This document shows, piece after piece, positions 11,301 to 31,911 of a DNA stretch of 64,000 bases (position 1 is its first letter; each line of letters opens with the position of its first letter). The notes beneath the pieces were generated by a model, which was given only the letters and a program-made list of their open reading frames with translations, had not been told where the DNA came from and ran no database searches. The stretch covers positions 248,001 through 312,000 of the forward strand of contig NZ_JADEYR010000001.1 in the NCBI RefSeq assembly GCF_015209585.1, read 5' to 3'. A program made the position numbers and the translations under genes. The DNA comes from Brachybacterium epidermidis. Lineage in GTDB: Bacteria; Actinomycetota; Actinomycetes; Actinomycetales; Dermabacteraceae.

Positions 11301-11605
11301 ACTGGGGAGGGAAGGTGCCGCCGGGCGCTGACGGTTGCAGTTCGAACAACTGCTACTACTTCACGATCACGTTCGAGAACCTGGAACCCGGTGAGACGTA
11401 CCAGGTCGTCTACAAGAGTGTGGATACAGACGGTGTATTCAAGGAATGGGCCAGCTTCTCGTTGACCGCAGATTCGCGGGGGCGGGTGACCACGCCGCAA
11501 CGCTTCTACGGCCACTGGCAGAGCACCGGGAATCCCAATGTGGTGTACATCGGCAGTAAGTCGATCGAGCAGAGGGAAGTCGGACGTTACTACAGCCCGG
11601 ACTGA
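5381..11605 (+). CDS. Giant membrane-anchored surface protein with Ig-like and fibronectin type III repeats
   Basis: The 2074-residue protein starts with a basic stretch (five consecutive Arg/Lys) and one hydrophobic helix at about 16-36, suggesting a type II anchor with an extracellular body. Residues about 40-400 form a beta-rich region without a named motif, possibly a propeller. From about 405 to 1480 there are about ten Ig/cadherin-like modules marked by a repeated N-D-x-D-P-x-G signature (for example NDTDPDGD, NDVDPTGG, NDSDPDGS), a pattern linked to calcium binding. From about 1482 to 1960 five fibronectin type III modules follow, beginning KPEAPSAPRV. The last roughly 110 residues contain a Cys pair (CSSNNC). 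Its position before MoxR, DUF58 and transglutaminase genes matches the FN3 protein of the bifidobacterial PFNA cluster. The function is unknown; adhesion, sensing or envelope scaffolding are inferences. Confidence 0.85.
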   Translation: MSVTHGVKRRRRRSGAISGAVLAILALVVTGFAIKYPGLTSSEVDVTNGGVWVMNEQKRLMGRLNVDAQELDARLAMNGEDLDLLQSGYTVIETGPRGMTPINTAAVSRNALVELPPGSEVRLGGDRVAVAAPDGRMWILSPEEAAAFNPSAVDPTYEGSSKAPQIAVSSQGTVHLLEGDKLLVFPYTEDTRKAKPNDPIVVGGLSTGEGMVELTVVGEQPVILDRENRMLRLGTEVKEYQLTEYGVSDLATARLQQPSPASKDVVLATQDTLFLIPLNGGEAEAHAARGTGRPVAPAQARGCAYGAWNDSSAYVRACGDDVISETVPDANSDGDLVLRVNHDLVVLNDQKFGLSWMITDDMQLVDEWKIRQDIQTSDAEEREEETLTTTITNVAAERDEKNRPPVANDDEFGVRAGKSVVLPVTRNDTDPDGDILTVSVQGEQPSIGTVTPIRGGTQLQIEVDEDATGTASFTYVADDGRGESDTATVTLDVTGPADNRAPAPTAENITKVQVRSGQEVSFNILPYWEDPDGDAFYLANATVQPEDVVTFRPDGLITFTDAGLTTGEKKVQLTFRDERGMQGEGTLEIEAVSENDLAPITTADHVRIVAGRTATIKPLVNDLNPNGGQLELTNVSENDALEVDPALEAGTVNVSGAEPGTYYLDYTVAASSSSSASLGLIRVDVVEASSEQLIPVAVDDMGTVTAGTETLIDPLENDVDPTGGVLVVNSVSVPEGSGLKATVIAHGLVRVEAEPGAVAGAEPVPLTYQVGNAAGTAEGTIRVMVAQTDTQFANPIAVPDRATVRAGDMVLVDVVGNDISPTGSKLTLGQILDGSRAEDKGRVETLQNQIRFIANDDASGEAVIKYEVLDETGRDGSANLTVRIVPADASNAPPRPENLTARTVAGTSVRIPVPTTGIDPDGDSVMLMGITSPAPQLGEVVSATGEWIEYVPHEGSVGTERFRYQVMDRQGALGTAEVLVGIAEPNDTNQPPYAVDDVVEVRPDREVQVQVLDNDTDPEGTPLSVVAADTEALTDIHVHSGEDAAENLVTVTTPPENGTHQVLYSASDGQLKSSATATIKVDENAPYRSPIARDDFVEAQDVLDPQAEHVDVDVLANDSDPDGSVTDLTVTLDGAPEGVELRENGVVRIAPQDEQQRYRYQIEDVDGRTAAGYIWVPGRAKQAPVWVGGTVQVQAGAETTIDLSDPNNIRVRPGAEAATVTDPSLVTAAHTDGTQLVQDESTLLYRAAEGFSGNDTISVEVTDGEVGDPMAATAILAIPVEITAEDENLPPTLQGALLEVEQGGTQASVDLAASAADPEGDDLTFALGEFSEPEGVTIGLDGSSVTAQATPRAAKGSIVSVPVTVTDGTNDPVEATVQVTVTGSNRPRLAAVLDTAVIDAGTTQSIDVLANDSNPFPGGNRTVMTPVVTSGRGSLDVEGDQVAITPDEDFHGILTATYTVRDDTEDPARDATGEIRVTVRGKPEAPSAPRVAEVGDGIVDLNFTAGVDNGARITGYRVTSASGPPVSQECASTSCTITGLTNDVEYTFQVIAINEVGESEPSAPSATARPDVRPETPGAPSAQRGDSRLTVAWNAPVNRGSAIQSYDLQMQDTATGELVEKEMGGGTTQHVWEGLTNGTDYRFRVRARNLAPEPSEWSAWSVAEHPAGPPAKPSGAMTAERVNDPKGGGVKVTWPAMTRAEANGEPISSYIVRSSSGQSATVGGDARTHTFYDLDQDSAHTFTYTGVNSVGEGVAPSAPSNEVTPWAMPAPPTSVSASMPSEGTGDGPNKRATVTWSGASGNGTTIKDYVVRWEGGSTVVNAPAESAAITGLDNGKSYTFTVQARNRFKGGESALSKASNSVTPYTRPAGPAISASNGKCSDGTTCPVSFSITANGSDGGAGGKTLQYRVDGGSWKNASGTSYTHKANLKSGGSMTVEARVTNAKGLVSDVRSATQKARTYTPPVPTVAGGGPDWGGKVPPGADGCSSNNCYYFTITFENLEPGETYQVVYKSVDTDGVFKEWASFSLTADSRGRVTTPQRFYGHWQSTGNPNVVYIGSKSIEQREVGRYYSPD

Positions 11606-16571: not shown

Positions 16572-18382
16572 TGAGCCAGACGCGGTACTGCAGCACGTGC
16601 GGGACTCTGCTGTCGCAGGGGGCTGCCATCTGCGGGGAATGCGGGGCCCGCTATCAGGAGTCCCCGTACGAGCGCCGCGCCACCGATGCGCCGGGGGCAT
16701 GGGCCCAGGCCCCCCGTTCGCGCTCTCGCGATCTCGGCGAGGAACCGGAGACCGCCTCTGAGGACGACGGCATCCAGCTCATCTCGCGGGAATCGCTCCA
16801 GCCGAAGGCCCCGGGCGCGACAACCCTGCGGCCGCCGGAACAGTACGATCAGCTGATGGTCACTCAGCAGCCTTCGAACGCCCCTGCGACGGGGTCAGCC
16901 TCCGGAGCGCCTGCCCCGGGCGGTTCCCACGCCGCGGGGGGCGCCTCCGGTGCGCCCGACGGCGCTGTGCCGGCGATGGAATCGCCGCTGGACGGCTGTG
17001 TCCCCGCCAGCCCGCTCAAGCGCTTCCTCGCCGCGCTGCTGGACGGCGTGATCGCGACGCTGGTGATGATCCCGTTGACGATCGGCCTGATCCTGGTGCT
17101 CACCCAGGAGACCGTAAGCCTGCTCGCAACGATCCTGGTGGGAGTGGGCGCTGCCCTGCCTGCGGCGTACACCGTGCTGATGATCTGGCTGCACGGAGCC
17201 AAGGGCTTCACCCTCGGCAAGCTGATCATGGGGCTGCGCACCACCCGCCTCTCGCAGGCCGGCCCCATCGGCCTGCTGCGCTCCCTGGGCCGCTGGTTCC
17301 TGTACGGCATCGCCTCGCTGATCATGGCGCTGTCGATCTTCCTGGATCCGAAGAAGTTGCTGCGCGGCTTCCACGACCGCGCTGTCGATTCGGTCGTGGT
17401 GGACATCAAGACCGGTCGCAACCCGATGAAGCCGCGCCCCGACGATTTCGAGCGACAGGACGCCGAGCACTACCTCGGTGCGCCGTCGGTGGCGGTCACC
17501 ACGCACGAGAACCTCCTGGCGACCCCCGGCTCGGCCTGGGCCGGGCAGGGTGATGCCAGTGCCGCTTCCGCGTCGTCCCAGGACCCCCGACAGACCAGCG
17601 GGTGGGGTTCCGGCATCGGAGAGGCCAGCCCTTACGCCCCTCCGCCGCAGGATGCGCAGCAGACTGCAGGGGACTCCTGGGCACCTCCGGAGGTCCCCGC
17701 TCTGGCGTCCCCGGCACCGCAGCCACAGCAGCCTCAGGAGCAGCAGTGGGGTGTGCCGTCGCAGCCGCAGCAGGCACCCGCCCAGCAGTGGGCCGCCCCG
17801 TCACAGCCGCAGCAGGCGCCCGAGCAGCCGTGGGGCGGCACGGCCTCACAGGAGCCCGCCGTCCAGCAGCGGCAGGCACCGGCGGCGGCACCCCCCGGTG
17901 CGCCGCAGGGCCCTCCGTCGCAGCACGTCCCGGCCGAGCACACCACCGACGCCTGGGACGACGGCGACGTCGACGAGGAGACTCGCGCGGTGATCGGGGC
18001 GGATCAGGACCTCGGCGACCTCGAGCAGACCCGCGTCTCGGTCGCGGCTCCAAGGCTCCCCGCCGTCACGCTGCGCGCGGATGACGGCACCGAGAGGGTG
18101 GTGACGGGTCCGGTCGTGATCGGCCGCAATCCTGCTGCTGGGCAGGGCGAGGTGCAGTTCGTGCTCAAGGACGAGACACGCTCGATGTCCAAGACCCACC
18201 TGCGGCTGGACGGAACCGGAAGCGACATCACCGTCACCGACCTGGGTTCGACGAACGGCTCGGCCATCGTCAGGGCCGACGGATCCCGTGAGAGCCTGGT
18301 GCCGAACACCCCGACCGTCCTGCCCGAGGGGGCCGCCCTGGCCCTCGGCGATCGCACCCTGACCGTGGAGAGGGACACGTGA
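16571..18382 (+). CDS. Zinc-ribbon / RDD membrane / FHA domain protein
   Basis: The 603-residue protein joins three modules. Residues 1-30 form a short zinc ribbon (C7, C10, C21, C24). Residues about 145-275 form an RDD domain with three hydrophobic helices. After a long Gln/Pro/Ala-rich linker with QPQQAP repeats, residues about 500-603 form an FHA domain with the expected GR, SKTH and STNG motifs for binding phosphothreonine. It probably docks phosphorylated partners at the membrane, and the kinase encoded 3.6 kb downstream is the likely source of phosphate. The ATG shares a base with the previous stop codon (TGATG); a GTG three bases earlier at 16568 is equally well spaced from the GAGGAAG ribosome-binding site. 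Confidence 0.88.
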   Translation: MSQTRYCSTCGTLLSQGAAICGECGARYQESPYERRATDAPGAWAQAPRSRSRDLGEEPETASEDDGIQLISRESLQPKAPGATTLRPPEQYDQLMVTQQPSNAPATGSASGAPAPGGSHAAGGASGAPDGAVPAMESPLDGCVPASPLKRFLAALLDGVIATLVMIPLTIGLILVLTQETVSLLATILVGVGAALPAAYTVLMIWLHGAKGFTLGKLIMGLRTTRLSQAGPIGLLRSLGRWFLYGIASLIMALSIFLDPKKLLRGFHDRAVDSVVVDIKTGRNPMKPRPDDFERQDAEHYLGAPSVAVTTHENLLATPGSAWAGQGDASAASASSQDPRQTSGWGSGIGEASPYAPPPQDAQQTAGDSWAPPEVPALASPAPQPQQPQEQQWGVPSQPQQAPAQQWAAPSQPQQAPEQPWGGTASQEPAVQQRQAPAAAPPGAPQGPPSQHVPAEHTTDAWDDGDVDEETRAVIGADQDLGDLEQTRVSVAAPRLPAVTLRADDGTERVVTGPVVIGRNPAAGQGEVQFVLKDETRSMSKTHLRLDGTGSDITVTDLGSTNGSAIVRADGSRESLVPNTPTVLPEGAALALGDRTLTVERDT

Positions 18383-19254
18383 TCGACCGCTCCCTCTCCG
18401 ACCCGGACATCCCCGGGACCATTCGCGCGGTCTCTGCGGCGGCCACCCATGTCGGCCATGTGCGGGCGACCAATGAGGACAGCCTGCTGAACGCACCTCC
18501 CGTCTACCTCGTCGCCGATGGCATGGGCGGGCACAACGCCGGTGAGGTCGCCAGTGCGATCGCGGTCGAGGAGTTCGAGAAGCTCACGATTCAGGAGAAC
18601 GTCACCGTCGAGCAGCTCGGCCAGGCCCTGCGGGCGGCTGCGGAGCGGATCGCGGAGCTGGGAGGCGAGGCGCAGCTCGGCGCCGGCACCACGGTCGCGG
18701 TCGTGGCGACCATGGTGCTGGACGGGGTGGGCTACTGGGTGGTGCTCAACCTCGGCGACTCGCGGGTGTACCGCTTGTCGGGCGAGATCTTCGAGCAGGT
18801 CAGCGTCGATCACTCGGTGGTCCAGGAGCTCATGGACCGCGGGGAGCTCAGTCGCGAGGAGGCGAAGGTCCATCCGTACCGGCACATGGTCACCCGCGCA
18901 CTGGGTGCCGGGCCGGAGTCCGATCCGGACTACTGGCTGATCCCGGCCGAGACGAACGACCGCATGCTGGTGTGCTCCGACGGACTCACGGGCGAGGTCG
19001 ACGACGCCACCATCGAGAGGGTGCTGCGGGGACCGCAGGACGTGCGAACGATCTGCGAGAGCTTGGTCCAGCTGGCGCTGGACGCCGGCGGTCGCGACAA
19101 CGTCTCGGTGGTGGTGGTCGAGGCGGTCGAGGTGGTCGGCCTGGGAATCGCTGCAGAGACCACCGGTGGCCGGGAGCCGCAGGGCGAGGGTTTCGAGGTG
19201 GATGAGGACACCCTGCCGCGCGGGCTCGGTTCCGGGGGAGGCGCCGGGGCATGA
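18379..19254 (+). CDS. PP2C-family serine/threonine protein phosphatase
   Basis: The 291-residue soluble phosphatase has the metal-dependent PP2C motifs in order: TNEDS near 31, VADGMGGH (D47), GDSRVYR, a DGLTGEV segment and GGRDNVSVV near the end. It should reverse phosphorylation by the kinase of this operon, the usual PstP/PrpC arrangement. The N-terminus begins with a GTG that overlaps the RDD/FHA stop codon (GTGA). The family core ends at about 255 and is followed by an acidic, Gly-rich tail. The pairing with this kinase is inferred from operon position. Confidence 0.93.
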   Translation: MIDRSLSDPDIPGTIRAVSAAATHVGHVRATNEDSLLNAPPVYLVADGMGGHNAGEVASAIAVEEFEKLTIQENVTVEQLGQALRAAAERIAELGGEAQLGAGTTVAVVATMVLDGVGYWVVLNLGDSRVYRLSGEIFEQVSVDHSVVQELMDRGELSREEAKVHPYRHMVTRALGAGPESDPDYWLIPAETNDRMLVCSDGLTGEVDDATIERVLRGPQDVRTICESLVQLALDAGGRDNVSVVVVEAVEVVGLGIAAETTGGREPQGEGFEVDEDTLPRGLGSGGGAGA

Positions 19255-21990
19255 GCGAGGGGGCGCCGCTGCTCGGGCGGGGAACGTGGATCCAACCGGG
19301 ACCGGCCACGCTGGTCGTGCGCGAGTCGGGCTGGGCTCTGATGGTCCCCGGGCTGAAGAAGGAGGTCGTCGAGGCCGCCTGGACCGCCCTGGGGGACGAG
19401 CCCACCGCAGACGGCTTCCTGGACGACCTGGTCCAGGCCGCTGGGCTCGAGAGCCTCGACAAGCTTCCCGCGATCCTGTACGCACTGGTGGACGGCACGA
19501 CCGCGCACGTGGGCGTGAAGGGCAAGACCCCTTTGGCGGTCTACACGGCGCAGGGGGCCCGGCAGATCGCAGGCACAGAGGACGAGCCGCTCGCGCAAGA
19601 GACGATCGAAGGGGTGCGCCGCATCGCCTTCGGCGACCTGCCGCCGGAGGAGCCCACCGGCGGGCTGCGCCTGGAGGTCGGCATCTCCCGCGTCCGCGGG
19701 TTCGTGCAGGCCACCATCGACCCGTCCGAGCTGGACGACGAGGCGCGCGCTGCACTCGCCGAGCAGGTGGAGAAGGACGGGCGCTCGATCGAGGATCCGG
19801 AGGCGAAGAAGCGGAAGGCCGAGAAGCCCAAGCCTCCGCCGCCGAAGGCGCCTGCGGCACCGAGCACCCCGGTGCGCAAGCCCATGCTGGCCACCCGGCC
19901 TCCCGGAGCCATGCCACCCTCGCGATCGTCCAGTGCTCCAGCCCAGGCGGCAGCGCCAGCTGGTCCCAGCGTGTTCGACGACCTGTTCGGTGACAAGAAG
20001 GACGACAAGCACAGCGACGCTGCTCCGGCACCGGCGGCCTCCAACGCCCCCGCTCCAGCACCCGAACCCGCTCCGTCTCCCGAGCCCGTCCCAGATCCGG
20101 AGCCCACCCCAGCTCCCGGGCCCGAGGCCAAGCCGTCCGTGGCCCCCGCGCCCGAGGCCGCATCGTCGAACGCCGCACCAGCGGGCCCCACCCCGTCGGA
20201 GCCTGCGTCGGAGCCGGATCAGCCTGCCACTGCCGAGCCCGCACCTGCTCCCGACGCGCCTGCCGCAGCTGCCCCGGGGAAGCGGCGACTCGTGAGCACC
20301 TCGCTCTTCGATCGGAAGCGACGCGCGCCGACGCCGGACCCGACCCCGGCCGCGCCGACTCCCGCGCCGGCCCCTGAGCCCGCCGCGACACCGCAGCCGA
20401 CTTCTCCTCCTGAGCAGGTGGCGGCGCCCGAGCCTGCGCCTGAACCTGCCGCGGCCCCTGAGCCTGCGGCGACGCCACAGGCGGAACCGGCCGCTGCTCC
20501 GGGGAGCGCGTCCCCGCCGGAACCGGCCACCCCCGCCGACGCAGCTCCGGCATCATCCACCAGCCCGGACGTGCGGCGGCCTGCATCCCCAGCACCGCAG
20601 GAGCCACCGACCTCATCGATCCCGACCCCACCGGAACCGGATGACGACGAATCCCCGGTGACGCTCATCGCCCCGATCGAGGACGAGCACGCGACCGGAG
20701 ACCCCGAGGACACGGGGACGGGCAAGGAGACGGACGAGAGGGGCAGCACCAGCGCGGACGCGCCCGCCGGCACCACCTCCGGTGGCACGGCCTCCTCACT
20801 CGGGTTCGGCAACGACCTCGACGCCACCGGCGCCTACGACGACCTCTTCGGCAAGACCGTGTTCCGCCGCATCGAGGACGCCGCAATACGACGCACCGAC
20901 GAGGACGAGGACTCCGAGGAGGCGGGCTCGAGCTCCGAGACGGCACCGACCGAGCCCGACCAGGACGACGATGCGGCGCCCGCGGACGACGACACCCCCG
21001 AGACCCTGGCTCAGCCCGCCCGGCCGACGGCAGACGAGGCATCCTCCGCCATCGGGGGCGACTTCATCGACTGGGTGCCCGGCGTGGGGAGGGCTGCTCC
21101 CGAGATCGCACAGACCGCCGCCCGTCGTGCCTCGCAGCCGCCCCGGTCCAGCCCGCATACCCACAGGTCCACATGGCGGAGAGGCCCCCGCCCCCGTCAC
21201 CGGTCCGCCCCGGGCAGTGGCACCCTCGTACGGCTCCGCACCCGTGCCCCAGGAGGGGATCGGCTTCCCCCAGCAGGGCGCCCCGCAGCCTGCGGGGCCG
21301 GCGGCGGCAGGGCCTGGACCGGCTCGACCTCACGCCGGAACCGGGCGGCAGGGCCACCCCTCGGCCCCAGGGCACACTGCCCGGGCGGCCAGTGCTCCGC
21401 ACCCGGTGGCCCCCTCCGGGCCCCCTCCGATGCCTGCACCCTCTCCCGCACCTGCGGTGGGCGCCGGCCCCCGTCCGGCAGCGCCCGCGCACGCCGGATC
21501 CGCGGCCCCGGGTGGACAGCAGGCCGCCCGAGCCGTCGTGATCCCGGGCCTGCTCTGCCCCCACGGGCACCCCAACTGCCCCGAGCGAACCCTGTGCCGC
21601 ACCTGCGGAGGACCGCTCGAGCAGAAGACCCGTCCGGTCCACCGACCGCCCCTGGGGACGGTCGACATCTCCACCGGTGGCGGATTCGTGCTCGACCGCT
21701 CCGCCGTCATCGGCCGTCGCCCCCGGGCCTCACGGGTCAGTGCCGACGACGTCCCCCAGCTGGTGACGGTCCCCAGCCCGCAGCAGGACATCTCCCGATC
21801 GCACCTGGAGCTGCGCCTCGAGGGATGGCGAGTCATCGCACTGGACATGGGCACCACCAACGGCACCACTCTCGAGCGACCGGGGATGGAGCCGGTGCGC
21901 CTGCGCGCAGGGGAGGGCGTGGTCCTCGGCGAGGGCGACCGACTCGACCTGGGAGATGGGGTCCGACTGACGATGAGGGGGATGGCATGA
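19251..21990 (+). pseudogene. Zinc-ribbon/FHA protein gene, frameshifted as sequenced
   Basis: The gene starts at an ATG overlapping the phosphatase stop codon and would encode about 912 residues. The first 180 residues form an unnamed alpha/beta domain. A very long Pro/Ala/Glu-rich linker follows. The C-terminal part has a four-Cys zinc ribbon (CPHGHPNC...CRTC) and an FHA domain (GR, SRSH, TNG). Between about 21,141 and 21,147 the frame moves by +1: removing one G from CCCCGGTCC restores QPPRPARIPTG and joins the two halves. As written, the first frame has no stop and reads on, in frame, through nonsense and into the kinase, giving a 1463-codon fusion. The restored stop overlaps the kinase start (ATGA), the junction style used throughout this operon, so the intact gene probably ended there. 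A sequence error or a true lesion is possible. Confidence 0.75.
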
Positions 21991-23642
21991 GCTCCCGTGC
22001 ACCATCGCAGCCGCCCCAGCTGCCCGGCTACGAGTTCGAGAAGCTGCTGGGGTCCGGCGGATTCGCCGACGTCTTCCTGTACCGGCAGTTCCGCCCCCAA
22101 CGACGGGTCGCCATCAAGGTGCTCCTGTCCAGCGTGCTCGACGACACCGTGCGTCGCCAGTTCGACGCCGAGGCCAACGTGATGGCCACGATGTCGACCC
22201 ACCCCTCCATCGTCACCATCCACACCGCCGACGCCTCCAGCGACCACCGGCCCTTCATCGTGATGGAGTACTGCCCCCGCCCCAACTACGGGGTCCGGTT
22301 CCGCAAGGAGCGGATCACGGTGGCGGAGGCGCTGCGCGTGGGCGTGCAGATCGCCGGTGCTGTGGAGACAGCTCACAGGGCCGGGATCCTGCATAGGGAC
22401 ATCAAGCCGGCCAACATCCTGGTCACCGAGTACAACCGGCCCGCCCTCACCGATTTCGGCATCTCGATCGTCGCCGGGCAGAGCAGCGACCTGGAGGATT
22501 CCCAGGGGATGTCGATCCCATGGTCGCCCCCGGAGTTCTTCGCGGATCCCCCGCGCGCCGATGTTCGCAGCGATGTGTTCTCCCTGGCCGCGACCGTGTA
22601 CTCACTGCTGGCCGGGCACACCCCGTTCGAGCGGGTCGGTCAGCGCAACACGGCCTCCGACCTGATCCACCGGATCACGAGCGAACCGCTGCGGCCCCTG
22701 AACAGGCCGGACGTCCCCGCCGAGCTGAACCGAGTGCTGTCCATCGCCATGGCGAAGGATCCGGCGGGCCGCTATGACACCGCCTTGGCGTTCGGGCGGA
22801 GCCTGCAGCAGGTGGAGATGGCGCTCTCGCTGCCGGTCACGCAGATGGACGTGCTGGATGACCGGGGCGCCCCGGCGGTACCCGCCGCCGATGACGACGA
22901 GCTGGACAGCCACACCCGGATCCGGAAGGTCGCCACGGTCGACCCCGAGACCGGGGGAGCAGCCTCGGGTGGGCCTCGCCGCCTCGACCCGTACGCCGGG
23001 GTGGCCCCGGCACTGGGCTCGCCCGCGCCGGAGGGATACGGATCACCGGCCTCCGCTGCCGCGGGGCCGGAGGAGTCCACGATGCTGCGGCCCGCCGGGA
23101 CTGCGCTGTCCACGATGTCCGGCGCCTCACCGGCACCTGCTGGGCCCGCTGCCGTGGCGGCCCCGGAGCTCGCAGACGTGCGCAGGACCCCGGCCTGGCC
23201 GTTCGTGACACTGGCGGCCGTGCTGGTGATCCTGCTGGGCGTGGGTGCCACGCTCGCGGTGCGCCACTACTTCGTGGACAAGCCCGGCCCCATCGAGACC
23301 TCCGAGATCAACGTGCCCGAGCCCCCCGCCGAGCCACCGCCGCCGCCGGTGGACCCGCAGATCGTGGTGGTGGTCGCCGGAGAGCTCGGAGGGGAGACGG
23401 GGCGTGCACGGGTGGAGTGGGGGTTGCCCGAGGGCATCGAGGAGGACCAGCACTTCCTGGTGGAGTGGGTGGACCTTCCCGAGAACTACGAGGATTTCCA
23501 GGTCCCCCACGAGGTGCACGGCCGCTCCTCCGTCACGCTGGAGATCCCGCCCGGACAGACCGAGCTGTGCGTGCAGGTGCGCACGGTGGATCCTTCCGGG
23601 CCCTCCAGTGACCCGCAGCAGGCATGCATCGATGGCGGATGA
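21987..23642 (+). CDS. Transmembrane serine/threonine protein kinase with extracellular fibronectin-like domain
   Basis: The 551-residue kinase is of the Hanks type. All key residues are present: glycine loop GSGGF (22-26), Lys44 in VAIK, Glu62, HRDIKPAN with D138, K140 and N143, DFG at 156-158 and SPPEF in place of APE. A juxtamembrane linker rich in Pro and Ala leads to one transmembrane helix at about 405-427. The outside part, about 440-551, is a single beta-sandwich resembling a fibronectin type III fold and not the PASTA repeats of PknB. Likely partners are the four FHA proteins of the operon, with the PP2C enzyme as antagonist. The ATG at 21987 is chosen because it overlaps the FHA stop codon and directly precedes the kinase fold. 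Confidence 0.93.
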   Translation: MSSRAPSQPPQLPGYEFEKLLGSGGFADVFLYRQFRPQRRVAIKVLLSSVLDDTVRRQFDAEANVMATMSTHPSIVTIHTADASSDHRPFIVMEYCPRPNYGVRFRKERITVAEALRVGVQIAGAVETAHRAGILHRDIKPANILVTEYNRPALTDFGISIVAGQSSDLEDSQGMSIPWSPPEFFADPPRADVRSDVFSLAATVYSLLAGHTPFERVGQRNTASDLIHRITSEPLRPLNRPDVPAELNRVLSIAMAKDPAGRYDTALAFGRSLQQVEMALSLPVTQMDVLDDRGAPAVPAADDDELDSHTRIRKVATVDPETGGAASGGPRRLDPYAGVAPALGSPAPEGYGSPASAAAGPEESTMLRPAGTALSTMSGASPAPAGPAAVAAPELADVRRTPAWPFVTLAAVLVILLGVGATLAVRHYFVDKPGPIETSEINVPEPPAEPPPPPVDPQIVVVVAGELGGETGRARVEWGLPEGIEEDQHFLVEWVDLPENYEDFQVPHEVHGRSSVTLEIPPGQTELCVQVRTVDPSGPSSDPQQACIDGG

Positions 23643-23697
23643 CCGGGACCGTGCGGGGACGATGGCAGGCAGGACCAAGAACGAGGGAGGACGGACG

Positions 23698-24408
23698 GTG
23701 ACGTCGACGATATCTGTGGAGTTCTGCGGGGAGTGGTTCCGCGTCGCGGAGGGAGAGGAGCTGACGATCGGCCGGGACGCCGATCTCAACGTCGACGACG
23801 ACAACCCCTACCTGCATCGCCGTTTCCTGTCCATCGTGCAGGTGGAGACGATGTGGTGGCTGGTCAACATCGGATCGCGCCTGTCCGCTACCATCACCGA
23901 CGGCACCGGGACCATGCAGGCATGGCTGGCCCCGGGTGCGCGGATCCCGCTCGTGTTCGACGTGACCAAGGTGGTGTTCACCGCGGGGCCCACCACGTAC
24001 GATCTCGAGATCCACGCCGACTCCCCGCAGTTCGAGCGCAGCCCCAGCCTGGATGACCCGGTGGGGGAGACCACCGTGGGCTCCGTGCAGCTCACCGCCA
24101 GCCAGAAGCTGCTGATCCTCGCCCTCGCAGAGCCGATGCTCACCCGGGAGAGCAGCGGGATGAGCGCGGTGCCCACCTCGGCTCAGGCCGCCGAGCGGCT
24201 GGGCTGGCCGCTGACGAAGTTCAACCGCAAGCTCGACAACGTGTGCGACAAGCTGGACCGCATGGGGGTGCGGGGCCTGCGCGGCGGCCCCGGCAAGCTC
24301 GCGAGCAACCGTCGAGCCCGCCTGGTGGAGCACTCGGTGTTCTCACGACTGGTGAGCTCCGAGGATCTGCCTCTGCTGGACCAGGCCCACGACGTCGACG
24401 AGGACTGA
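23698..24408 (+). CDS. FHA-like protein with C-terminal helix-turn-helix domain
   Basis: The start is the GTG at 23698, because AGGGAGGAC precedes it at good spacing and the FHA fold begins at once; ATGs at 23632 and 23662 are possible but lack such a site. The 236-residue product has an N-terminal FHA-like domain (residues 1-105) that keeps the GR motif but has lost the Ser-x-x-His and Asn-Gly motifs, so phosphopeptide binding is doubtful. The C-terminal part (about 125-215) is helical, with a segment (AAERLGWPLTKFNRKLDNV) that looks like a winged or sigma4-like helix-turn-helix. It is the only candidate DNA-binding protein in the secretion locus. It lies 3 nt before the secretion ATPase gene. 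Confidence 0.75.
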   Translation: MTSTISVEFCGEWFRVAEGEELTIGRDADLNVDDDNPYLHRRFLSIVQVETMWWLVNIGSRLSATITDGTGTMQAWLAPGARIPLVFDVTKVVFTAGPTTYDLEIHADSPQFERSPSLDDPVGETTVGSVQLTASQKLLILALAEPMLTRESSGMSAVPTSAQAAERLGWPLTKFNRKLDNVCDKLDRMGVRGLRGGPGKLASNRRARLVEHSVFSRLVSSEDLPLLDQAHDVDED

Positions 24409-24411
24409 TAG

Positions 24412-27400
24412 ATGCGCATCAAGCTCACGCTGCGCAGGCCCGAGGACCGCCTGACGGACCTGGAGGTGACCGCGGACGCGACGGCCTCGGTCGCGGACGT
24501 CGCCAATGCGCTGTACCTTGCCGATCCGCTTCGCTCGGAGCTGGAGCCCCCGGAGGGGCTCACGCTGCAGGTGCAGGACCCGGGAGCCGGGCCCGGTGCG
24601 GGGGGTGTGCGCTCGCTGGACCGCGAGATCGACCTGATCCAGGCCGGGCTCCGCTCCGGCAGCGTGGTCTCCATCGCGCGCTCCTCCACCGAGTACGCCA
24701 CCCGATCGGAGTCCCGCGGTGCGGCGGTGGCCCTGATGCGGGTGCTCTCGGGCCCGGAGGCAGGACGCGAGTTCCCCCTGCCCTCCGGTTCCAGCGTGGT
24801 GGGCCGTGAGGGAGACCTCGACATCCGCATCGCCGATCCGATGCTCTCCAAGCGGCACGCCCGCATCAACGTCGGGGACTCGATCGAGATCGTGGACATG
24901 CACTCGTCCAACGGCGTGGTCATCGGCGGTGAGCAGGTCCAGCGTGCCGTGATCGGCCCGGCCGACACCGTGCTGATCGGCCAGACCACCTTCTCCGTGA
25001 TCGCCCTGCACCGCCTGGGCGGCACTGCCCCCAGCTCCCCGGTGGTGGAGTTCAACCGGTCCCCGCGCGTGGTGCCCCGCTTCCCCTACCGGCCGTTGAA
25101 GGCACCCACACCGCCCAAGGAGCCGGCCCCGCAGTTCTTCCCCATCTTCATGCTGTTCGCGCCCATCCTCATGGGCGGGTTCATGTTCTCCCTGACCCGC
25201 AGCCCGTTCTCGCTCATGTTCGTGTTCATGATGCCGATGATGGCCACGGCCGGGTACCTCAACCGCAAGTTCCAGCAGAAGAAGGTGCTCGAGCGGCAGA
25301 TCCAGAACTTCGAGGAGGGGCTGGCCTCCCTCAAGCGCCGGGTCACCGCCGCACAGGACCTCGAACGCGCAGTGCGCCTGGTGGAGACCCCGTCGGCCGC
25401 CGACACGGTGGACGCCGCCTTCCGACTGGGCCGCCTGCTGTGGACCCACCGTCCCGAGCACAACGCCTTCGCCACGGTGAGGCTGGGCCTGGGGATCGCC
25501 GAGTCCCGGGTGGGCATCGAGATGCCCGGGGAGAACGACGCCATCCCCAAGTACTACGACATGCTCGACGACATGAACGAGGAGTACAAGCTGATCGCCG
25601 GCGTGCCGGTGGTCGCCGAGCTCCGCTACGCCGGCAACATCGGCGTCGCCGGTGGAGGTGACGAGGCCGATGGTGTGGCCAGGGGCATCGTCACCCAGCT
25701 GTTCTCCCTGCACTCACCGGCCGAGATGGCGATCGCTGCGATCACCTCGCGCTCCAGCCGGGACACGTGGCAGTGGCTGAAGTGGCTGCCGCACACCTCC
25801 AGTCCCCACTCGCCCCTGCCGGGTGATCATCTCGCCGACACCCCGGGGCGGGGCACCGCCCTGATGTCCCGGATCGAGGAGCTGATCGAGCAGCGCAGCG
25901 GCGGCGAGGCGGCACAGCTGCGCACCCCGATGACGCCGGACATCACCTCCGAGCCCGAGATCCCGCCCGAGCCGGTCACCCCCAACCTGGTGGTGATCAT
26001 CGAGGACGACGCCCCTGTGGACCGCGCGCGGCTGGTGCGCATCGCGGAGCGCGGGCCCGACGTCGGCGTGCACGTGATCTGGTCGGCCTCCAACGTCGCC
26101 GCCCTGCCGGCTGCCTGCCGCACCTACGTGTCGGTCGAGGAGTCCGTGGAAGGTGCCAGCGCCGGGCACGTGCGGCTGGGGGAGCGGTACTACCCGGTCA
26201 CCGTCGAGACCGTCTCGGTGGAGGTCGCCGCCGGCGTCGCCCGGCATCTGTCCCCCGTGGTGGATGCGGGCGTGCCCGTCGATGACGATTCCGACCTGCC
26301 GCGAGCCATCTCCTACCTCAAGCTCGGCGGCATGGCGCTGGCCGAGGACCCGGGGCACATCATCGAGCGGTGGAAGGAGAACAACTCCTTGACCCCGCGC
26401 GACGGATCGCCGCCCCAGCGCCGCAAGCACGACGCCAACCTGCGCGGGCTGATCGGCCACAACGGCCAGGACGCCTTCCACCTGGACCTGCGCACCCAGG
26501 GCCCCCACGCCCTGGTGGGCGGAACCACGGGTGCAGGCAAGTCGGAGTTCCTGCAGGCATGGGTGATGGGCATGGCCACTGCGCACAGCCCCGACCGCGT
26601 CACGTTCCTGTTCGTGGACTACAAGGGCGGTGCCGCGTTCGCCGATGCCATCACGCTGCCACACGCGGTGGGGCTGGTGACGGACCTGTCCCCGCACCTG
26701 GTGCGTCGTGCCCTGACCTCCCTGCGCGCCGAGCTGCACCACCGCGAGCACCTGCTGAACCGCAAGAAGGCCAAGGACCTGGTGTCCCTGGAGCGCACGG
26801 GGGACCCCGAGGCGCCTCCCAGCCTGATCATCATCGTCGACGAGTTCGCGGCTCTGGCCAAGGAGATCCCCGAGTTCGTGGACGGCGTGGTGGACGTGGC
26901 CGCCCGTGGTCGATCGCTGGGCCTGCACCTGATCCTGGCCACGCAGCGACCCGCCGGTGTCATCAAGGACAATCTGCGCGCCAACACCAACCTGCGGATC
27001 GCCCTGCGCATGGCCGACGAGGCCGATTCGAAGGACATCCTGGGCGATGCGATGGCTGCGCACTTCGACCCCGGGATCCCGGGCCGTGCTGCCGCCAAGA
27101 CCGGGCCAGGGCGCATCGCCACCTTCCAGACGGGGTACGCCGGCGGGTGGACCACCCACGAGCCCGAGCGCGCCCGCATCGACATCGTGGAGATGGACTT
27201 CGGCACCGGTGAGCAGTGGGACATCCCCGCTCCACCCGCGAAGGAGGTCAAGGACCCCGGTCCCAATGACATCAGCCGCATGGTCCGGACCATCACCGCG
27301 GCCGCGGAGCAGGCGGGCGTGCCGACGCCGCGCAAACCGTGGCTGTCCGAGCTCGCCGAGGCGTACGACCTGGCCCGTCTGCCCAGTCGGCGCACCGACG

Positions 27401-28875
27401 AGGACCTCCTGATGGGCGTGATGGACGTCCCGGAGAACCAGGCACAGCCCACCGTGTCGTACTACCCAGACCGTGACGGCAACATGGCGATCTACGGCAC
27501 CGGCGGCTCGGGCAAGTCCACGACGCTGCGCACCATCGCGATCTCGGCCGCCTCCACCGTGCGCGGTGGCCCGGTCCACGTGTACGGGCTCGACTTCGGC
27601 GCCTCCGGCCTGACGATGCTGGAGGAGCTGCCGCACGTGGGCGCCATCGTCTCCGGGGACGACGAGGAGCGGGTGATCCGACTGCTGCGCACCCTGCGCG
27701 AACTCATCGACGAGCGCGCCCGCGCCTTCTCGGCGATCCGCGCCGGGTCCGTGTCCGAGTACCGGGAGCTGGCGAACGCACCGGAGACCCCGCGCATCCT
27801 GCTGCTGGTCGACGGCATGGCCGCGTTCCGCGAGGCCTACGACTTCTCCAACCTGACGAAGTGGTTCACCACCTTCGTCCAGATCGCCACCGATGGCCGT
27901 CAGGTGGGCGTGCACGTGATCGTCACCGGTGATCGCCCCAACGCGATCCCCACCTCCCTGGGCTCGTCCATCCAGAGGCGGCTCATCCACCGCATGGCAT
28001 CGGTGGACGACTACATGGCCTTCGGCGCACCCAAGGACGTGCTCGACGGCACCTCCCCGCCCGGGCGCGCGATCCTGGACAGTCACGAGATGCAGGTCGC
28101 AGTCCATGGCGGCGACTCCAACGTGGCCATCCAGTCGCGCGAGGTCAGCAAGCTCGCCCAGGCCATGAGGCGTGCCGGGGTCCCGGAGGCACCAGGGGTG
28201 AAGAGACTCCCCGAGCGCGTGGAGCTCTCGGAGCTGCGCCCCGTGGTCGACGGCCAGCCGGTGCTGGGCCTGGGGGACGAGACGCTCGCGGAAGTCACCT
28301 ACGAGCCCCGTGGAGCCTTCATGGTCACCGGACCGATGGGATCGGGACGCACCACCGCGATGCTCACCATCGCGACCGGCCTCAAGGCGCTGCCCGCGCC
28401 CATGCGCCTGGTGCGCTTCTCCGCTCGCCGCACCCCGCTCACCGGCCTGCCGATCTGGGATGTGGAGGGGTCGGATCCGGAGACCGTCAAGGACCTGGCT
28501 GCCCAGCTGCGCCAGACCGTCGAGTCCGGCTCGGTCGCCGAGGGCAGGCTGGCCCTGTTCATCGACGGGGTCGCCGACTTCACCGGTACGGGGGTGGAGA
28601 ACGACCTGGACAAGCTGATCCGTGCCTGCACCCGCGAGGGGCAGTTCGTGGTCGGTGAGAACGAGTCCGCCTCCTGGTCACAGGCCTACGTGCTGGCCCA
28701 GCCCTTCAAGGCGGGGCGGCGCGGTCTCCTGCTGCAGCCCGGGGAGATGGACGGCGACACGCTGCTGGGCACCGGTCTGGGCCGGGTGCGCCGGGCGGAC
28801 TTCCCCACCGGCCGCGGGTTCCTGGTGTTCAGCGGCAGGGCGGTCAAGCTGCAGGTCGCCCAGATCACGACCTGA
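24412..28875 (+). CDS. EccC/EssC-type FtsK/SpoIIIE ATPase of a type VII-like secretion system
   Basis: The 1487-residue protein should be the motor that recognises and exports the WXG100 proteins encoded downstream. It begins with a ubiquitin-like region (1-95) and a full FHA domain (about 110-205, with GR, SKRH and SNG), followed by two transmembrane helices at about 242-285, a linker domain and three FtsK-type ATPase domains. Walker A motifs are GTTGAGKS (704-711), GTGGSGKS (1029-1036) and GPMGSGRT (1307-1314), so the third has Arg1313 in place of Lys. Walker B is VDEF in domain 1 but Asp-Gly (D1134, D1385) in domains 2 and 3, as expected if only the first hydrolyses ATP efficiently. The N-terminal FHA and ubiquitin-like parts resemble EssC of Firmicutes more than mycobacterial EccC. 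It ends the long operon. Confidence 0.92.
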   Translation: MRIKLTLRRPEDRLTDLEVTADATASVADVANALYLADPLRSELEPPEGLTLQVQDPGAGPGAGGVRSLDREIDLIQAGLRSGSVVSIARSSTEYATRSESRGAAVALMRVLSGPEAGREFPLPSGSSVVGREGDLDIRIADPMLSKRHARINVGDSIEIVDMHSSNGVVIGGEQVQRAVIGPADTVLIGQTTFSVIALHRLGGTAPSSPVVEFNRSPRVVPRFPYRPLKAPTPPKEPAPQFFPIFMLFAPILMGGFMFSLTRSPFSLMFVFMMPMMATAGYLNRKFQQKKVLERQIQNFEEGLASLKRRVTAAQDLERAVRLVETPSAADTVDAAFRLGRLLWTHRPEHNAFATVRLGLGIAESRVGIEMPGENDAIPKYYDMLDDMNEEYKLIAGVPVVAELRYAGNIGVAGGGDEADGVARGIVTQLFSLHSPAEMAIAAITSRSSRDTWQWLKWLPHTSSPHSPLPGDHLADTPGRGTALMSRIEELIEQRSGGEAAQLRTPMTPDITSEPEIPPEPVTPNLVVIIEDDAPVDRARLVRIAERGPDVGVHVIWSASNVAALPAACRTYVSVEESVEGASAGHVRLGERYYPVTVETVSVEVAAGVARHLSPVVDAGVPVDDDSDLPRAISYLKLGGMALAEDPGHIIERWKENNSLTPRDGSPPQRRKHDANLRGLIGHNGQDAFHLDLRTQGPHALVGGTTGAGKSEFLQAWVMGMATAHSPDRVTFLFVDYKGGAAFADAITLPHAVGLVTDLSPHLVRRALTSLRAELHHREHLLNRKKAKDLVSLERTGDPEAPPSLIIIVDEFAALAKEIPEFVDGVVDVAARGRSLGLHLILATQRPAGVIKDNLRANTNLRIALRMADEADSKDILGDAMAAHFDPGIPGRAAAKTGPGRIATFQTGYAGGWTTHEPERARIDIVEMDFGTGEQWDIPAPPAKEVKDPGPNDISRMVRTITAAAEQAGVPTPRKPWLSELAEAYDLARLPSRRTDEDLLMGVMDVPENQAQPTVSYYPDRDGNMAIYGTGGSGKSTTLRTIAISAASTVRGGPVHVYGLDFGASGLTMLEELPHVGAIVSGDDEERVIRLLRTLRELIDERARAFSAIRAGSVSEYRELANAPETPRILLLVDGMAAFREAYDFSNLTKWFTTFVQIATDGRQVGVHVIVTGDRPNAIPTSLGSSIQRRLIHRMASVDDYMAFGAPKDVLDGTSPPGRAILDSHEMQVAVHGGDSNVAIQSREVSKLAQAMRRAGVPEAPGVKRLPERVELSELRPVVDGQPVLGLGDETLAEVTYEPRGAFMVTGPMGSGRTTAMLTIATGLKALPAPMRLVRFSARRTPLTGLPIWDVEGSDPETVKDLAAQLRQTVESGSVAEGRLALFIDGVADFTGTGVENDLDKLIRACTREGQFVVGENESASWSQAYVLAQPFKAGRRGLLLQPGEMDGDTLLGTGLGRVRRADFPTGRGFLVFSGRAVKLQVAQITT

Positions 28876-28919: not shown

Positions 28920-28965
28920 ATGGGGACTCCTCCCCATGGCCGCGTGTCGCGGCCCGCTCTACAGT
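28920..28965 (+). promoter_or_regulatory. Palindromic box 1 and -10 element for the first WXG100 gene
   Basis: ATGGGGACTCCTCCCCAT at 28920-28937 is an inverted repeat (ATGGGGA and TCCCCAT around four bases). It is followed after 22 nt by TACAGT at 28960-28965, a TANNNT -10 element. The box centre would fall about 43 nt upstream of transcription start, a typical class II activator position. Boxes of the same form and spacing precede the other two WXG100 units. A weaker relative (CGGGGTTCCTCCCC) lies at 28895-28908. Confidence 0.65.
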
Positions 28966-29052
28966 GGGACCGTCGAACAGTCGGCAGCAGGCGGTGCACG
29001 GGATTCGGGCGCGGCCGCGAGGCACCAGTAACTGAGGAAGGGGAACCCGACG

Positions 29053-29322
29053 GTGAACGCCTTGAAGGGTATGAATGTCGAAGAGGTCCGGGGCATGGCG
29101 CGCCAGCTGCGCGAGGCCGCGGAGGAGATCACCCGCATCGAGCAGGAGCTCACCAGCGGCCTCGAGGAAGTGGACTGGACGGGTCCTGATGCCGACCGTT
29201 TCCGCGGGCAGTGGTCCGGGGAGATGATCCCGGCCCTCCAGCAGATCATGAACTCGGTGAACGAGCTCGGCGAGACCGCTGATCGCAACGCTGCCGAGCA
29301 GGAGGCCACCTCCGGCTCCTGA
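29053..29322 (+). CDS. WXG100-family protein (first, unpaired copy)
   Basis: The 89-residue helical-hairpin protein has a WTG turn at W42-G44, between two amphipathic helices. This fits the ESAT-6/CFP-10 superfamily exported by type VII systems. The GTG start follows GAGGAAGGGG. It begins 177 nt after the secretion ATPase gene, behind its own promoter with a palindromic box, and ends before a strong hairpin, so it is probably a single-gene unit. It has no partner beside it and may form a homodimer. No C-terminal YxxxD/E signal is seen; the tail ends in Ala, Glu, Thr and Ser. Confidence 0.88.
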   Translation: MNALKGMNVEEVRGMARQLREAAEEITRIEQELTSGLEEVDWTGPDADRFRGQWSGEMIPALQQIMNSVNELGETADRNAAEQEATSGS

Positions 29323-29349
29323 CCCGCAGGTGAGCACGAGCGGTACCAC

Positions 29350-29387
29350 GTGAGGGGCCGGGATGGAACACCATCCCGGCCCCTCAC
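29350..29387 (+). terminator. Hairpin terminator after the first WXG100 gene
   Basis: A perfect 17-bp stem (29350-29366 with 29371-29387) closes on an AACA tetraloop. There is no T tract after it. It separates the WXG100 gene from the next gene, whose start is 50 nt downstream. Confidence 0.7.
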
Positions 29388-29437
29388 CGTACTGATATGT
29401 TGACGGCGTCATCGGTGGGAGAAATCGGAGCCAGTTC

Positions 29438-29920
29438 ATGTCCAAGACCATCCTGTTCCCGAGCGCAGATTTCCCGGGTCCGCCGCAGATCCGCCTCGAC
29501 GTCCCCGATGAGTGGGAGACCCTCACCGTCCCCGGCGTCCAGATGGCGGTCGCACAGCCCCGAGTCGAGGGCAGGTTCCGCGCCAACGTGGTGGTGACGG
29601 TCCAACGTTTCGGTCCGGACTTCAGCCTGGAGGCGGCAAAGGCCGGCCTCGAGCAGCGCAAGGCGGTGCTGCCCGAGCTCGAGGAGATCGGGACCGGGGA
29701 GATCACCCTGGACGAGATCACCTGGATCGCGAGCGAGTACGGGTACACGCAGCCGGGCCGTCCCACCGTCGTGCAGGCCGCACGGTATGCGGTGGTGGAC
29801 CGGGCCGGCGTCGCCACGGACGTGGTGGAGATCGTCGGAAGCTGCGGTGCCGAGCACGCGGAGGACGAGATCGAGGTGGTGCGCTCGATCCAGGACTCCG
29901 TGCACCTGGTGCTGGACTGA
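29438..29920 (+). CDS. LpqN/DUF1795-like protein of the secretion locus
   Basis: The 160-residue protein is alpha/beta and has no signal peptide or transmembrane helix. Its layout (short N-terminal strand, LDVPDEWETL near 20, a long amphipathic helix around 65-90, then strands) resembles the LpqN/LpqT and DUF1795 fold, which in mycobacteria is mostly lipoproteins. Here it would be cytoplasmic. It sits between two WXG100 units of the type VII-like locus, so a role as chaperone, adaptor or cargo is possible, but nothing in the sequence proves it. The start ATG has a GGAG about 8 nt upstream. Family assignment is tentative; existence of the gene is well supported by codon pattern and context. 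Confidence 0.65.
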   Translation: MSKTILFPSADFPGPPQIRLDVPDEWETLTVPGVQMAVAQPRVEGRFRANVVVTVQRFGPDFSLEAAKAGLEQRKAVLPELEEIGTGEITLDEITWIASEYGYTQPGRPTVVQAARYAVVDRAGVATDVVEIVGSCGAEHAEDEIEVVRSIQDSVHLVLD

Positions 29921-30259
29921 CCATCCGCCGACCCGGAGGGCTGCCCCGAGGTCGGGAACCGCGGTGCAGACGACGATTGTGGATAGTCCGCCTCTGACAA
30001 GGAGGTGGGCGGTCCACAGTCTGTGAGCCCCAGGGGTGGCTGTGACCTGGACCGATGGCGCTTGGCGCCGCCCTCGGCGCGGGCGGGGCGCCCCGGTAGG
30101 GGAGGGGAGAGGTGCCTGGGGAGTTCTCCCCATCGACGGGTGACGTGGCATGTCCGTACAGTGATGGCATCACAACGGGAACGATCGAGGAAGCGGCACG
30201 GAGCTGCGGAGGTCACCCCCGAGCTGATGCCACGGAATCACCGAGAAAAGGGGAACACC
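29921..30259 (+). other. Intergenic region upstream of the second WXG100 unit
   Basis: No gene is seen in these 339 nt. An imperfect 16-bp stem at 29979-30017 may terminate the preceding gene. Box 2 and its -10 element lie at 30116-30162. The remaining leader of about 90 nt is similar in length to the leaders of the other two units and ends in AAAGGGGAACACC before the ATG. Confidence 0.6.
30116..30162 (+). promoter_or_regulatory. Palindromic box 2 and -10 element for the second WXG100 unit
   Basis: CTGGGGAGTTCTCCCCAT at 30116-30133 is an inverted repeat with the same GGGGA-N4-TCCCC core as boxes 1 and 3. TACAGT at 30157-30162 follows after 23 nt. The start codon of the first gene lies about 90 nt after the expected transcription start. 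Confidence 0.65.
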
Positions 30260-30523
30260 ATGAAGAAGGGCATGAATCCGGAGGCCGTCGACCAGCTCGC
30301 CGGCCAGGTCGACTCGCTGATCGAGAACATGGAGACCATCTACTCCGGTCGCCTGGGCTACGTCACCGACCTGGACTGGACCGGTGAGGACCGCGATCGC
30401 TACGTGCCGGAGTTCGAGGAGCAGGTTGGCACCGCCAACAAGACCGTCGTCCAGAAGCTCACCGAGCTCGCCGAGAAGCTTCGCGCCAACGCTCAGCACC
30501 AGCGCGAGACCTCCAGCTCCTGA
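30260..30523 (+). CDS. WXG100-family protein, pair A member 1
   Basis: The 87-residue protein has the WXG100 hairpin with W40-T41-G42. The ATG at 30260 is chosen because GGGGAAC precedes it and the product starts MKKGMNPEAV, closely matching the copy at 31306. It is followed 47 nt later by a WXG100 gene of a different type (MAFKGM start), the usual two-gene arrangement for a heterodimeric substrate pair such as EsxB/EsxA. No classic C-terminal YxxxD/E motif is evident; a YVPEF segment directly follows the turn. Export by the upstream EccC-type ATPase is inferred. Confidence 0.9.
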   Translation: MKKGMNPEAVDQLAGQVDSLIENMETIYSGRLGYVTDLDWTGEDRDRYVPEFEEQVGTANKTVVQKLTELAEKLRANAQHQRETSSS

Positions 30524-30570
30524 TCCGCACCTGAACTCACCGCACACATACGTCACAGAGGGGAAACACC

Positions 30571-30840
30571 ATGGCTTTCAAGGGTATGAATCCGGACGAG
30601 GGTCGCGAGACCGCATCGCTCGTCACCGAGGCTGCCACCGTCGTCAACGACACCACCGACAACGTCACCTCGCAGGTGATGGGCGTGGAGTGGGTCGGCC
30701 CTGACTACGACGCCTTCACCGAGGAGTGGAACTCGTTCCTCGCCGGCCCGCTGCAGGCCCTCTCCGAGGCCTACCGCAACAAGGGCGACGAGCTCACCAA
30801 GCACGCCGATCAGCAGGACGAGACCTCGAACGCTGTCTGA
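30571..30840 (+). CDS. WXG100-family protein, pair A member 2
   Basis: The 89-residue protein has W41-V42-G43 at the helical turn, followed by PDYDAF. It begins MAFKGMNPDEG and ends ADQQDETSNAV, both nearly shared with the copy at 31642. The start follows AGAGGGGAAAC. It probably forms a heterodimer with the preceding gene product. A strong hairpin 40 nt after its stop codon closes the unit. Confidence 0.9.
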   Translation: MAFKGMNPDEGRETASLVTEAATVVNDTTDNVTSQVMGVEWVGPDYDAFTEEWNSFLAGPLQALSEAYRNKGDELTKHADQQDETSNAV

Positions 30841-30879
30841 TCCGGTCCTTGCGCCTCACATCGGGCGCATCGGATCTCT

Positions 30880-30915
30880 CGAATGCCCCATCTCCTACGG
30901 GAGGTGGGGCATTCG
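30880..30915 (+). terminator. Hairpin terminator after WXG100 pair A
   Basis: A 16-bp stem with one G-T wobble (30880-30895 with 30900-30915) closes on a TACG tetraloop. No U tract follows, like the other hairpins in this locus. Confidence 0.7.
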
Positions 30916-31166
30916 GCGTTGCCGGCCGGCCATGGGGCAGCCCTCCCAGGGGTCATGACGCCTGCACCAGTGCTTGTCGGCGCCGTTCCCGATGCCACCC
31001 GTGGGAGCCGCCGCGCTGCCGGCTCGAGGCCCGTCGTCGGTGCCGCGCCGCTGCAGTGCACCGGGGGGCGAGACGCCGGCGCAGAGCGCCCGTTATCCAC
31101 AAGGGCAGGCCGTGCACAATCCGCCCTTGCCTGCGAGAATGCGCCGCTGAACGGGTGGGGAGGAAC

Positions 31167-31212
31167 ATGGGGACTAGTCCCCATCGCCTCAACGACCGGT
31201 CCCGTCTAATCT
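31167..31212 (+). promoter_or_regulatory. Palindromic box 3 and -10 element for the third WXG100 unit
   Basis: ATGGGGACTAGTCCCCAT at 31167-31184 is a perfect 18-bp palindrome. TAATCT at 31207-31212 follows after 22 nt and fits a TANNNT -10 element. This is the most symmetric of the three boxes and probably closest to the binding-site consensus. Confidence 0.7.
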
Positions 31213-31305: not shown

Positions 31306-31566
31306 ATGAAGAAGGGCATGACCCCGGAGGCCGTCGAGCAGATGGCCGAGCAGATCCGCGGCGCCGGCGACGACACCAACGCCGCCTACACCACCGTCCA
31401 GGGGCGGGTCACCGATTTCGACTGGACCGGTGAGGACCGCGACCGCTACGTCTCCGATTTCGACAGCAGCATCGGGCAGCTCGTGCAGCAGGTCCGTCAG
31501 CAGGCCCAGGACTTCGCCGAGCGGGCCCAGCGCAACGCTCAGGAGCAGCGCGACGCCTCCGCCTGA
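31306..31566 (+). CDS. WXG100-family protein, pair B member 1
   Basis: The 86-residue protein has W40-T41-G42 and shares the start MKKGM and the segment DWTGEDRDRYV with the protein at 30260. An in-frame ATG 18 bases earlier (31288) would give an extra six residues, but GGGAGGAAC lies between the two and favours 31306. With the next gene it duplicates pair A. Confidence 0.9.
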   Translation: MKKGMTPEAVEQMAEQIRGAGDDTNAAYTTVQGRVTDFDWTGEDRDRYVSDFDSSIGQLVQQVRQQAQDFAERAQRNAQEQRDASA

Positions 31567-31641: not shown

Positions 31642-31911
31642 ATGGCTTTCAAGGGAATGGACCCGGAGGAGGGGCGCGAGGTCGCCTCGGAGATCACTCG
31701 GACCGGCGAGCAGATCCTGGAGTACTTCGACTCCGTCACCTCGGTGGTGAGCTCGGTCGACTGGATCGGGCCCGACTACGACGCATACCTCGATGACTGG
31801 AACAGCTTCGTGTCCGGTTCGATCGCTGGTCTCGTCGAGGCTCTCAACGCCAAGAGCGAAGAGCTGACGCGTCACGCCGATCAGCAGGACGACACCTCGA
31901 ACGCGGTCTGA
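31642..31911 (+). CDS. WXG100-family protein, pair B member 2
   Basis: The 89-residue protein has W41-I42-G43 followed by PDYDAY, and shares MAFKGM, the WNSF segment and the tail ADQQDDTSNAV with the protein at 30571. AAGGGGAGC precedes the start. Its gene is followed by a bidirectional hairpin shared with the convergent yajQ gene. Confidence 0.9.
   Translation: MAFKGMDPEEGREVASEITRTGEQILEYFDSVTSVVSSVDWIGPDYDAYLDDWNSFVSGSIAGLVEALNAKSEELTRHADQQDDTSNAV

Follow-up and report, generated by a model that had tools for sequence, protein, structure and literature searches.

In mycobacteria, ESX-1 genes are regulated via the whiB6 promoter by EspM, a protein of FHA-HTH architecture that represses whiB6-dependent expression (PMC7002343). 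Its site of action is the whiB6-espM region, and a palindromic site is not mentioned for it (PMC7002343). DosR/DevR of M. tuberculosis is a response regulator of the LuxR family that uses the motif TTSGGGACTWWAGTCCCSAA (PMC2275270). In Bacillus subtilis, the yuk (Ess) type VII system is activated by DegU, a regulator of LuxR/NarL type (PMC3701619). Full-text searches of the open-access literature gave no description of the palindromic box discussed below, and none that assigns the FHA-HTH protein treated here a role in type VII regulation in bacteria other than mycobacteria.

The locus compared here lies in a 64-kb stretch of Brachybacterium epidermidis DNA, referred to as the window. Small WXG100 proteins are encoded there beside an EccC-type ATPase, as expected of type VII secretion substrate units (Table 1). 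An FHA-HTH protein of 238 aa is encoded immediately 5' of the EccC gene. An earlier note on this DNA had described a palindromic box ahead of each of the three WXG100 units, 22-23 nt before a TANNNT hexamer, and this was confirmed: TGGGGANNNNTCCCCA occurs three times in the window, always at WXG100 units, against 0.01 expected from shuffles. The leaders, which had been put at 80-90 nt, measure approximately 80-92 nt from a point about 7 nt past the -10 to the starts at 29053 (GTG), 30260 and 31306. A 14-mer with one mismatch is found 8 times in the window against 8.0 expected, i.e. without enrichment, and was dropped as a definition of the box; this chance-level count leaves the 16-18 bp form as the informative definition. 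The reported absence of a box ahead of the ATPase operon also holds in the B. epidermidis genome (14-29 kb scanned, core match with at most one mismatch), as the sole other core match, at position 14344, lies within a coding sequence.

Two other genes of the locus deserve mention. The zinc-ribbon/FHA gene between the PP2C and kinase genes (window 19251-21990) is apparently split by a frame change near 21130-21150. The N-terminal and FHA parts share one frame in 14 of 16 relatives, and the change is either a sequencing error or a real frameshift. Immediately ahead of the MoxR gene, window 5381-11605 encodes a 2074-aa protein whose repeats include FN3-like ones, and its homologues are found directly 3' of FHA-HTH where EccC is not adjacent.

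Table 1. Boxes, -10 elements and genes of the type VII locus, with positions in the window
Feature	Position	Strand	Remarks
PP2C-type Ser/Thr phosphatase	18379..19254	+	FHA-HTH/EccC operon; NF033484 E=9e-63
Ser/Thr protein kinase	21988..23642	+	FHA-HTH/EccC operon; candidate upstream signal; PF00069 E=4e-26
FHA + C-terminal helix-turn-helix protein (FHA-HTH)	23692..24408	+	candidate box reader; AlphaFold models, Foldseek; co-distribution with box
EccC-type FtsK/SpoIIIE secretion ATPase with FHA domain	24412..28875	+	PF01580 E=8e-51; TIGR03928, TIGR03924, TIGR03925
Box 1 ATGGGGACTCCTCCCCAT	28920..28937	+	ahead of WXG100 unit 1; most Brachybacterium loci have a box in the equivalent place
-10 element TACAGT	28960..28965	+	gap to box 1 = 22 nt
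WXG100 protein 1	29053..29322	+	PF06013 E=1.3e-6, above curated cut-off
160-aa protein between WXG100 units 1 and 2	29438..29920	+	no Pfam family; position kept in Brachybacterium
Box 2 CTGGGGAGTTCTCCCCAT	30116..30133	+	ahead of WXG100 unit 2
-10 element TACAGT	30157..30162	+	gap to box 2 = 23 nt (counted in sequence)
WXG100-like protein 2	30260..30523	+	PF06013 E=1.5e-5, slightly under cut-off
WXG100-like protein 3	30571..30840	+	one unit with protein 2; TIGR03930 E=0.015 (weak); resembles WXG100 proteins of neighbouring species
Box 3 ATGGGGACTAGTCCCCAT	31167..31184	+	ahead of WXG100 unit 3
-10 element TAATCT	31207..31212	+	gap to box 3 = 22 nt
WXG100-like protein 4	31306..31566	+	PF06013 E=9.8e-4, under cut-off
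WXG100-like protein 5	31642..31911	+	one unit with protein 4; resembles protein 3 and its relatives

The regulon extends beyond the three units of the window. The B. epidermidis genome (3.07 Mb) contains 12 exact 16-mer boxes, and 24 copies of the same 16-mer with at most one mismatch compared with 4 for the reversed control. The genome scan that the earlier note had called for, combining the box with a -10 at a gap of 22 (at most three mismatches), returned 32 matches against 0 in the control, many of them being a palindrome matched again on its opposite strand. Genes downstream of boxes mostly encode WXG100 proteins or proteins whose N-terminus is WXG100-like, and the latter follow the box at four loci beyond the window units. 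A box also precedes an LppM-like lipoprotein, proteins with membrane segments (two loci), a 169-aa protein and proteins of about 260 aa. Divergent ~260-aa proteins without a Pfam match are found repeatedly 3' of the box (six loci) and are possible partners or chaperones of WXG100 cargo; a more specific assignment as EspG-like chaperones was dropped, no support having been found. At one locus (L001:1448-1700), an exact box and a good -10 are followed by the 39 aa that remain of a WXG100-like N-terminus (MNFLGQDTEAVRGC...) and then by a lipoprotein-like ORF. This is a decayed cargo gene whose promoter is still intact.

The spacing was evaluated with 51 boxes picked by palindrome alone, in order to avoid circularity. 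TANNNT occurs 21-24 nt past the box on one side in 47 of them (background about 0.5% per orientation), and an offset of 22 is used 38 times compared with a mean of 0.09 for the other offsets. A logo built from 157 box-promoters, a set selected for TANNNT, has the consensus ATGGGGA-S-T-N-S-TCCCCAT with a downstream S-G preference, a gap of 22 (110 promoters) or 23 (40) and TA(G/C)NGT as the -10; no -35 hexamer is visible in it between box and -10. A shared operator is found at a fixed distance from the -10 ahead of many genes, above chance. When the start is placed 7 nt past the -10, the box centre is approximately 43-44 bp upstream, and a centre near -43 without a -35 hexamer fits an activator.

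The box is kept among relatives, as seen from the comparison of promoters in related genomes that had been proposed. Exact boxes number 378 in 38 Brachybacterium genomes versus 3 reversed controls, with 2-17 per genome in 37 of the 38; EccC of the window is 79-93% identical to that of named Brachybacterium neighbours. A box between EccC and the first WXG100 gene is also present in most examined loci of Arthrobacter, Psychromicrobium, Renibacterium-like bacteria and Sinomonas, as well as in a Propionibacteriaceae genome and a Subtercola genome, often in the form ATGGG[GT]A...T[CA]CCCAT-CGAC. We conclude that this promoter class for type VII cargo is real and extends through the order. The proposal of a regulon is strongly supported by one box at one -10 distance, genome-wide and across families, with no -35. 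The further proposal that substrates are regulated separately from the machinery stands for B. epidermidis but fails as a general rule, as in two other genera (G125, G062) the box heads the operon or cluster leading to FHA-HTH. The latter arrangement suggests autoregulation of FHA-HTH in these two genomes.

Two observations on individual loci may be added. At three Brachybacterium loci, the WXG100 pair unit is tandem-duplicated along with its box promoter. Sequence records under the names Vibrio cholerae strain 35D and Sporosarcina beigongshangi contain a type VII locus of actinobacterial kind, including box and FHA-HTH, and are probably contaminant contigs or misnamed.

FHA-HTH carries the only recognised DNA-binding fold in the examined part of the operon. 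Its N-terminal model has an FHA fold, with Foldseek matches to FHA domains at E<=0.001, among them FHA-1 of Rv1747 (E=6.7e-6), while the Pfam FHA match is under the cut-off (E=0.17). Gly27-Arg28 and Asn59 are invariant, whereas NPYLHR shows no apparent counterpart to the Ser of the Ser/His motif. As this canonical pair for phosphothreonine is not evident, the FHA domain may mediate other contacts. The C-terminal domain is helical with an HTH-like model (pLDDT 83), and among its plausible matches the best is to the DNA-binding domain of LiaR (4wul), of NarL/LuxR type (probability 0.90, TM 0.80 on target, rmsd 2.0), at a non-significant E=1.8. The GerE sequence model (PF00196) has no match in 19 FHA-HTH orthologues at E<=5, and a PDB sequence search with FHA-HTH gave no useful match. 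The stretch TKFNRKLDNVCDKLDR in the helix-turn-helix is, like the box, near-invariant from Brachybacterium to Propionibacteriaceae.

Box and FHA-HTH occur in largely the same genomes. Among 297 genomes of the order, FHA-HTH (strong match, E<1e-50) is found in 124 and box-promoters in 82, and the reversed pattern has 0 matches in any; both are present in 80, FHA-HTH only in 44, the box only in 2 and neither in 171. Fisher's test, which ignores phylogenetic non-independence, gives p=2e-37, or 5e-31 without the own genus. WXG100 genes are present in 275 of the 297, and none of the at least 161 genomes with WXG100 but without FHA-HTH has a box-promoter. The box was thus rejected as a general WXG100 marker, as it tracks FHA-HTH. 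The two box-only genomes share one identical site and have no WXG100 match, and are probably chance, as is probably the one site with a gap of 20 in a further genome (G556). In the class (277 genomes), 13 of 14 box genomes fall among the 23 with strong FHA-HTH matches. The only near-complete Brachybacterium genome without boxes (99% complete) also has no FHA-HTH, while another (74% complete) has boxes and no FHA-HTH match. Three full-length named EccC loci without FHA-HTH have no box either. The 44 FHA-HTH genomes without the strict box-promoter pattern include other genera of the same family and G033; of 20 examined, 2 have a box with a divergent -10 and the others have none near the genes fetched. 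EccC was not found in the 20 kb around FHA-HTH in seven genomes (G170, G253, G118, G183, G157, G500, G062), in most of which FHA-HTH is flanked by genes for PP2C or FHA proteins at one end and for an FN3-repeat protein, MoxR and a transglutaminase at the other. In the first four of these, boxes are located elsewhere ahead of WXG100-like or other genes.

These results make it probable that the box is the operator of activator-dependent promoters for type VII substrate genes, read most likely by FHA-HTH with input from the kinase and PP2C. We infer that FHA-HTH binds the box, activates, dimerises and is gated by phosphorylation. In this model, FHA-HTH would sit on the palindrome as a dimer around -44, held there by its C-terminal helix-turn-helix, and make the RNA polymerase contact that a -35 would otherwise provide. 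Its FHA domain would take up the signal coming from the kinase and PP2C encoded in its own operon. FHA-HTH travels with the kinase, the phosphatase and other FHA proteins and so cannot be picked out by co-distribution alone; what favours it as the reader is that no other DNA-binding fold was recognised in the examined part of the operon. A real regulon could instead be read by a factor encoded elsewhere, e.g. a NarL/LuxR response regulator, with FHA-HTH modulating that factor or simply co-travelling with the signalling module. The half-sites GGGGACT/AGTCCCC recall the DosR motif, and strict boxes are few or absent in many of the genomes from other genera that have FHA-HTH. We regard this reading as rather unlikely, however, given that the helix of FHA-HTH's own helix-turn-helix is as near-invariant as the box, that box promoters are almost absent without FHA-HTH, and that the box heads the FHA-HTH operon in two lineages.

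Repression by FHA-HTH or another factor bound to the box is improbable. The end of the box lies 22-23 nt 5' of the -10, outside the -10/-35 core at which repressors usually bind, and the absence of a -35 hexamer fits the need for an activator. The precedent for repression is EspM, which has the FHA-HTH architecture, regulates a type VII system and binds at the whiB6 promoter (PMC7002343). It is very improbable that an alternative sigma factor uses the box as its -35 element: the distance to the -10-like hexamer is fixed and a separate -35 is absent, but the box is a full 18-bp palindrome that ends about 5 bp too far from the -10 for a -35, and the -10 is of the ordinary TANNNT type. It is hardly conceivable that the box is due to chance or serves the preceding gene as an RNA hairpin or terminator. 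The palindrome could form a 7-bp stem with a 4-nt loop, but it has no T-run and lies 5' of the -10, hence untranscribed from its own promoter; the promoter spacing is fixed, and the excess over controls already refutes this reading.

The fixed geometry of the box provides lists of candidate cargo genes for each genome, and these also take in WXG100-domain proteins encoded at a distance from the secretion locus. It also names one testable candidate regulator with its probable kinase and phosphatase. A broader proposal, for which we would put the chances at slightly under even, is that an ancient dedicated circuit of Ser/Thr kinase, PP2C, FHA-HTH and box coordinates scattered type VII cargo genes in a large part of Actinomycetes. 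The gene for the factor would be part of the secretion or signalling operon, and cargo output could then follow a phospho-signal or secretion itself.

Each of the known systems shares part of this arrangement. DegU is a LuxR/NarL-type regulator activating a type VII system, a type and role that the candidate FHA-HTH may share, but it is a two-component response regulator of a Bacillota T7SSb and controls one operon, machinery included; scattered substrate genes with a common box are not described for yuk (PMC3701619). DosR/DevR likewise has a G-rich palindrome, GGGACT...AGTCCC, ahead of many scattered genes (PMC2275270), and FHA-HTH likely has a similar type of DNA-binding fold. The half-sites of the window box are nevertheless 2 bp closer and carry a G4 run, FHA-HTH has no receiver domain, and the gene set behind the box is secretion cargo instead of hypoxia genes. 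With EspM, FHA-HTH shares the order of FHA and DNA-binding helix-turn-helix and a gene beside a type VII locus, its predicted models having the EspM-like architecture of N-terminal FHA and C-terminal helix-turn-helix. FHA-HTH was rejected as an EspM ortholog, as the NCBIfam EspM model NF052403 does not match and no NCBIfam model matches at E<=1. EspM is also longer (over 360 aa versus 238 aa). FHA-HTH shares an operon with kinase, PP2C and EccC genes, and its link is to a box ahead of substrate genes genome-wide. By analogy, EspM is the best functional parallel.
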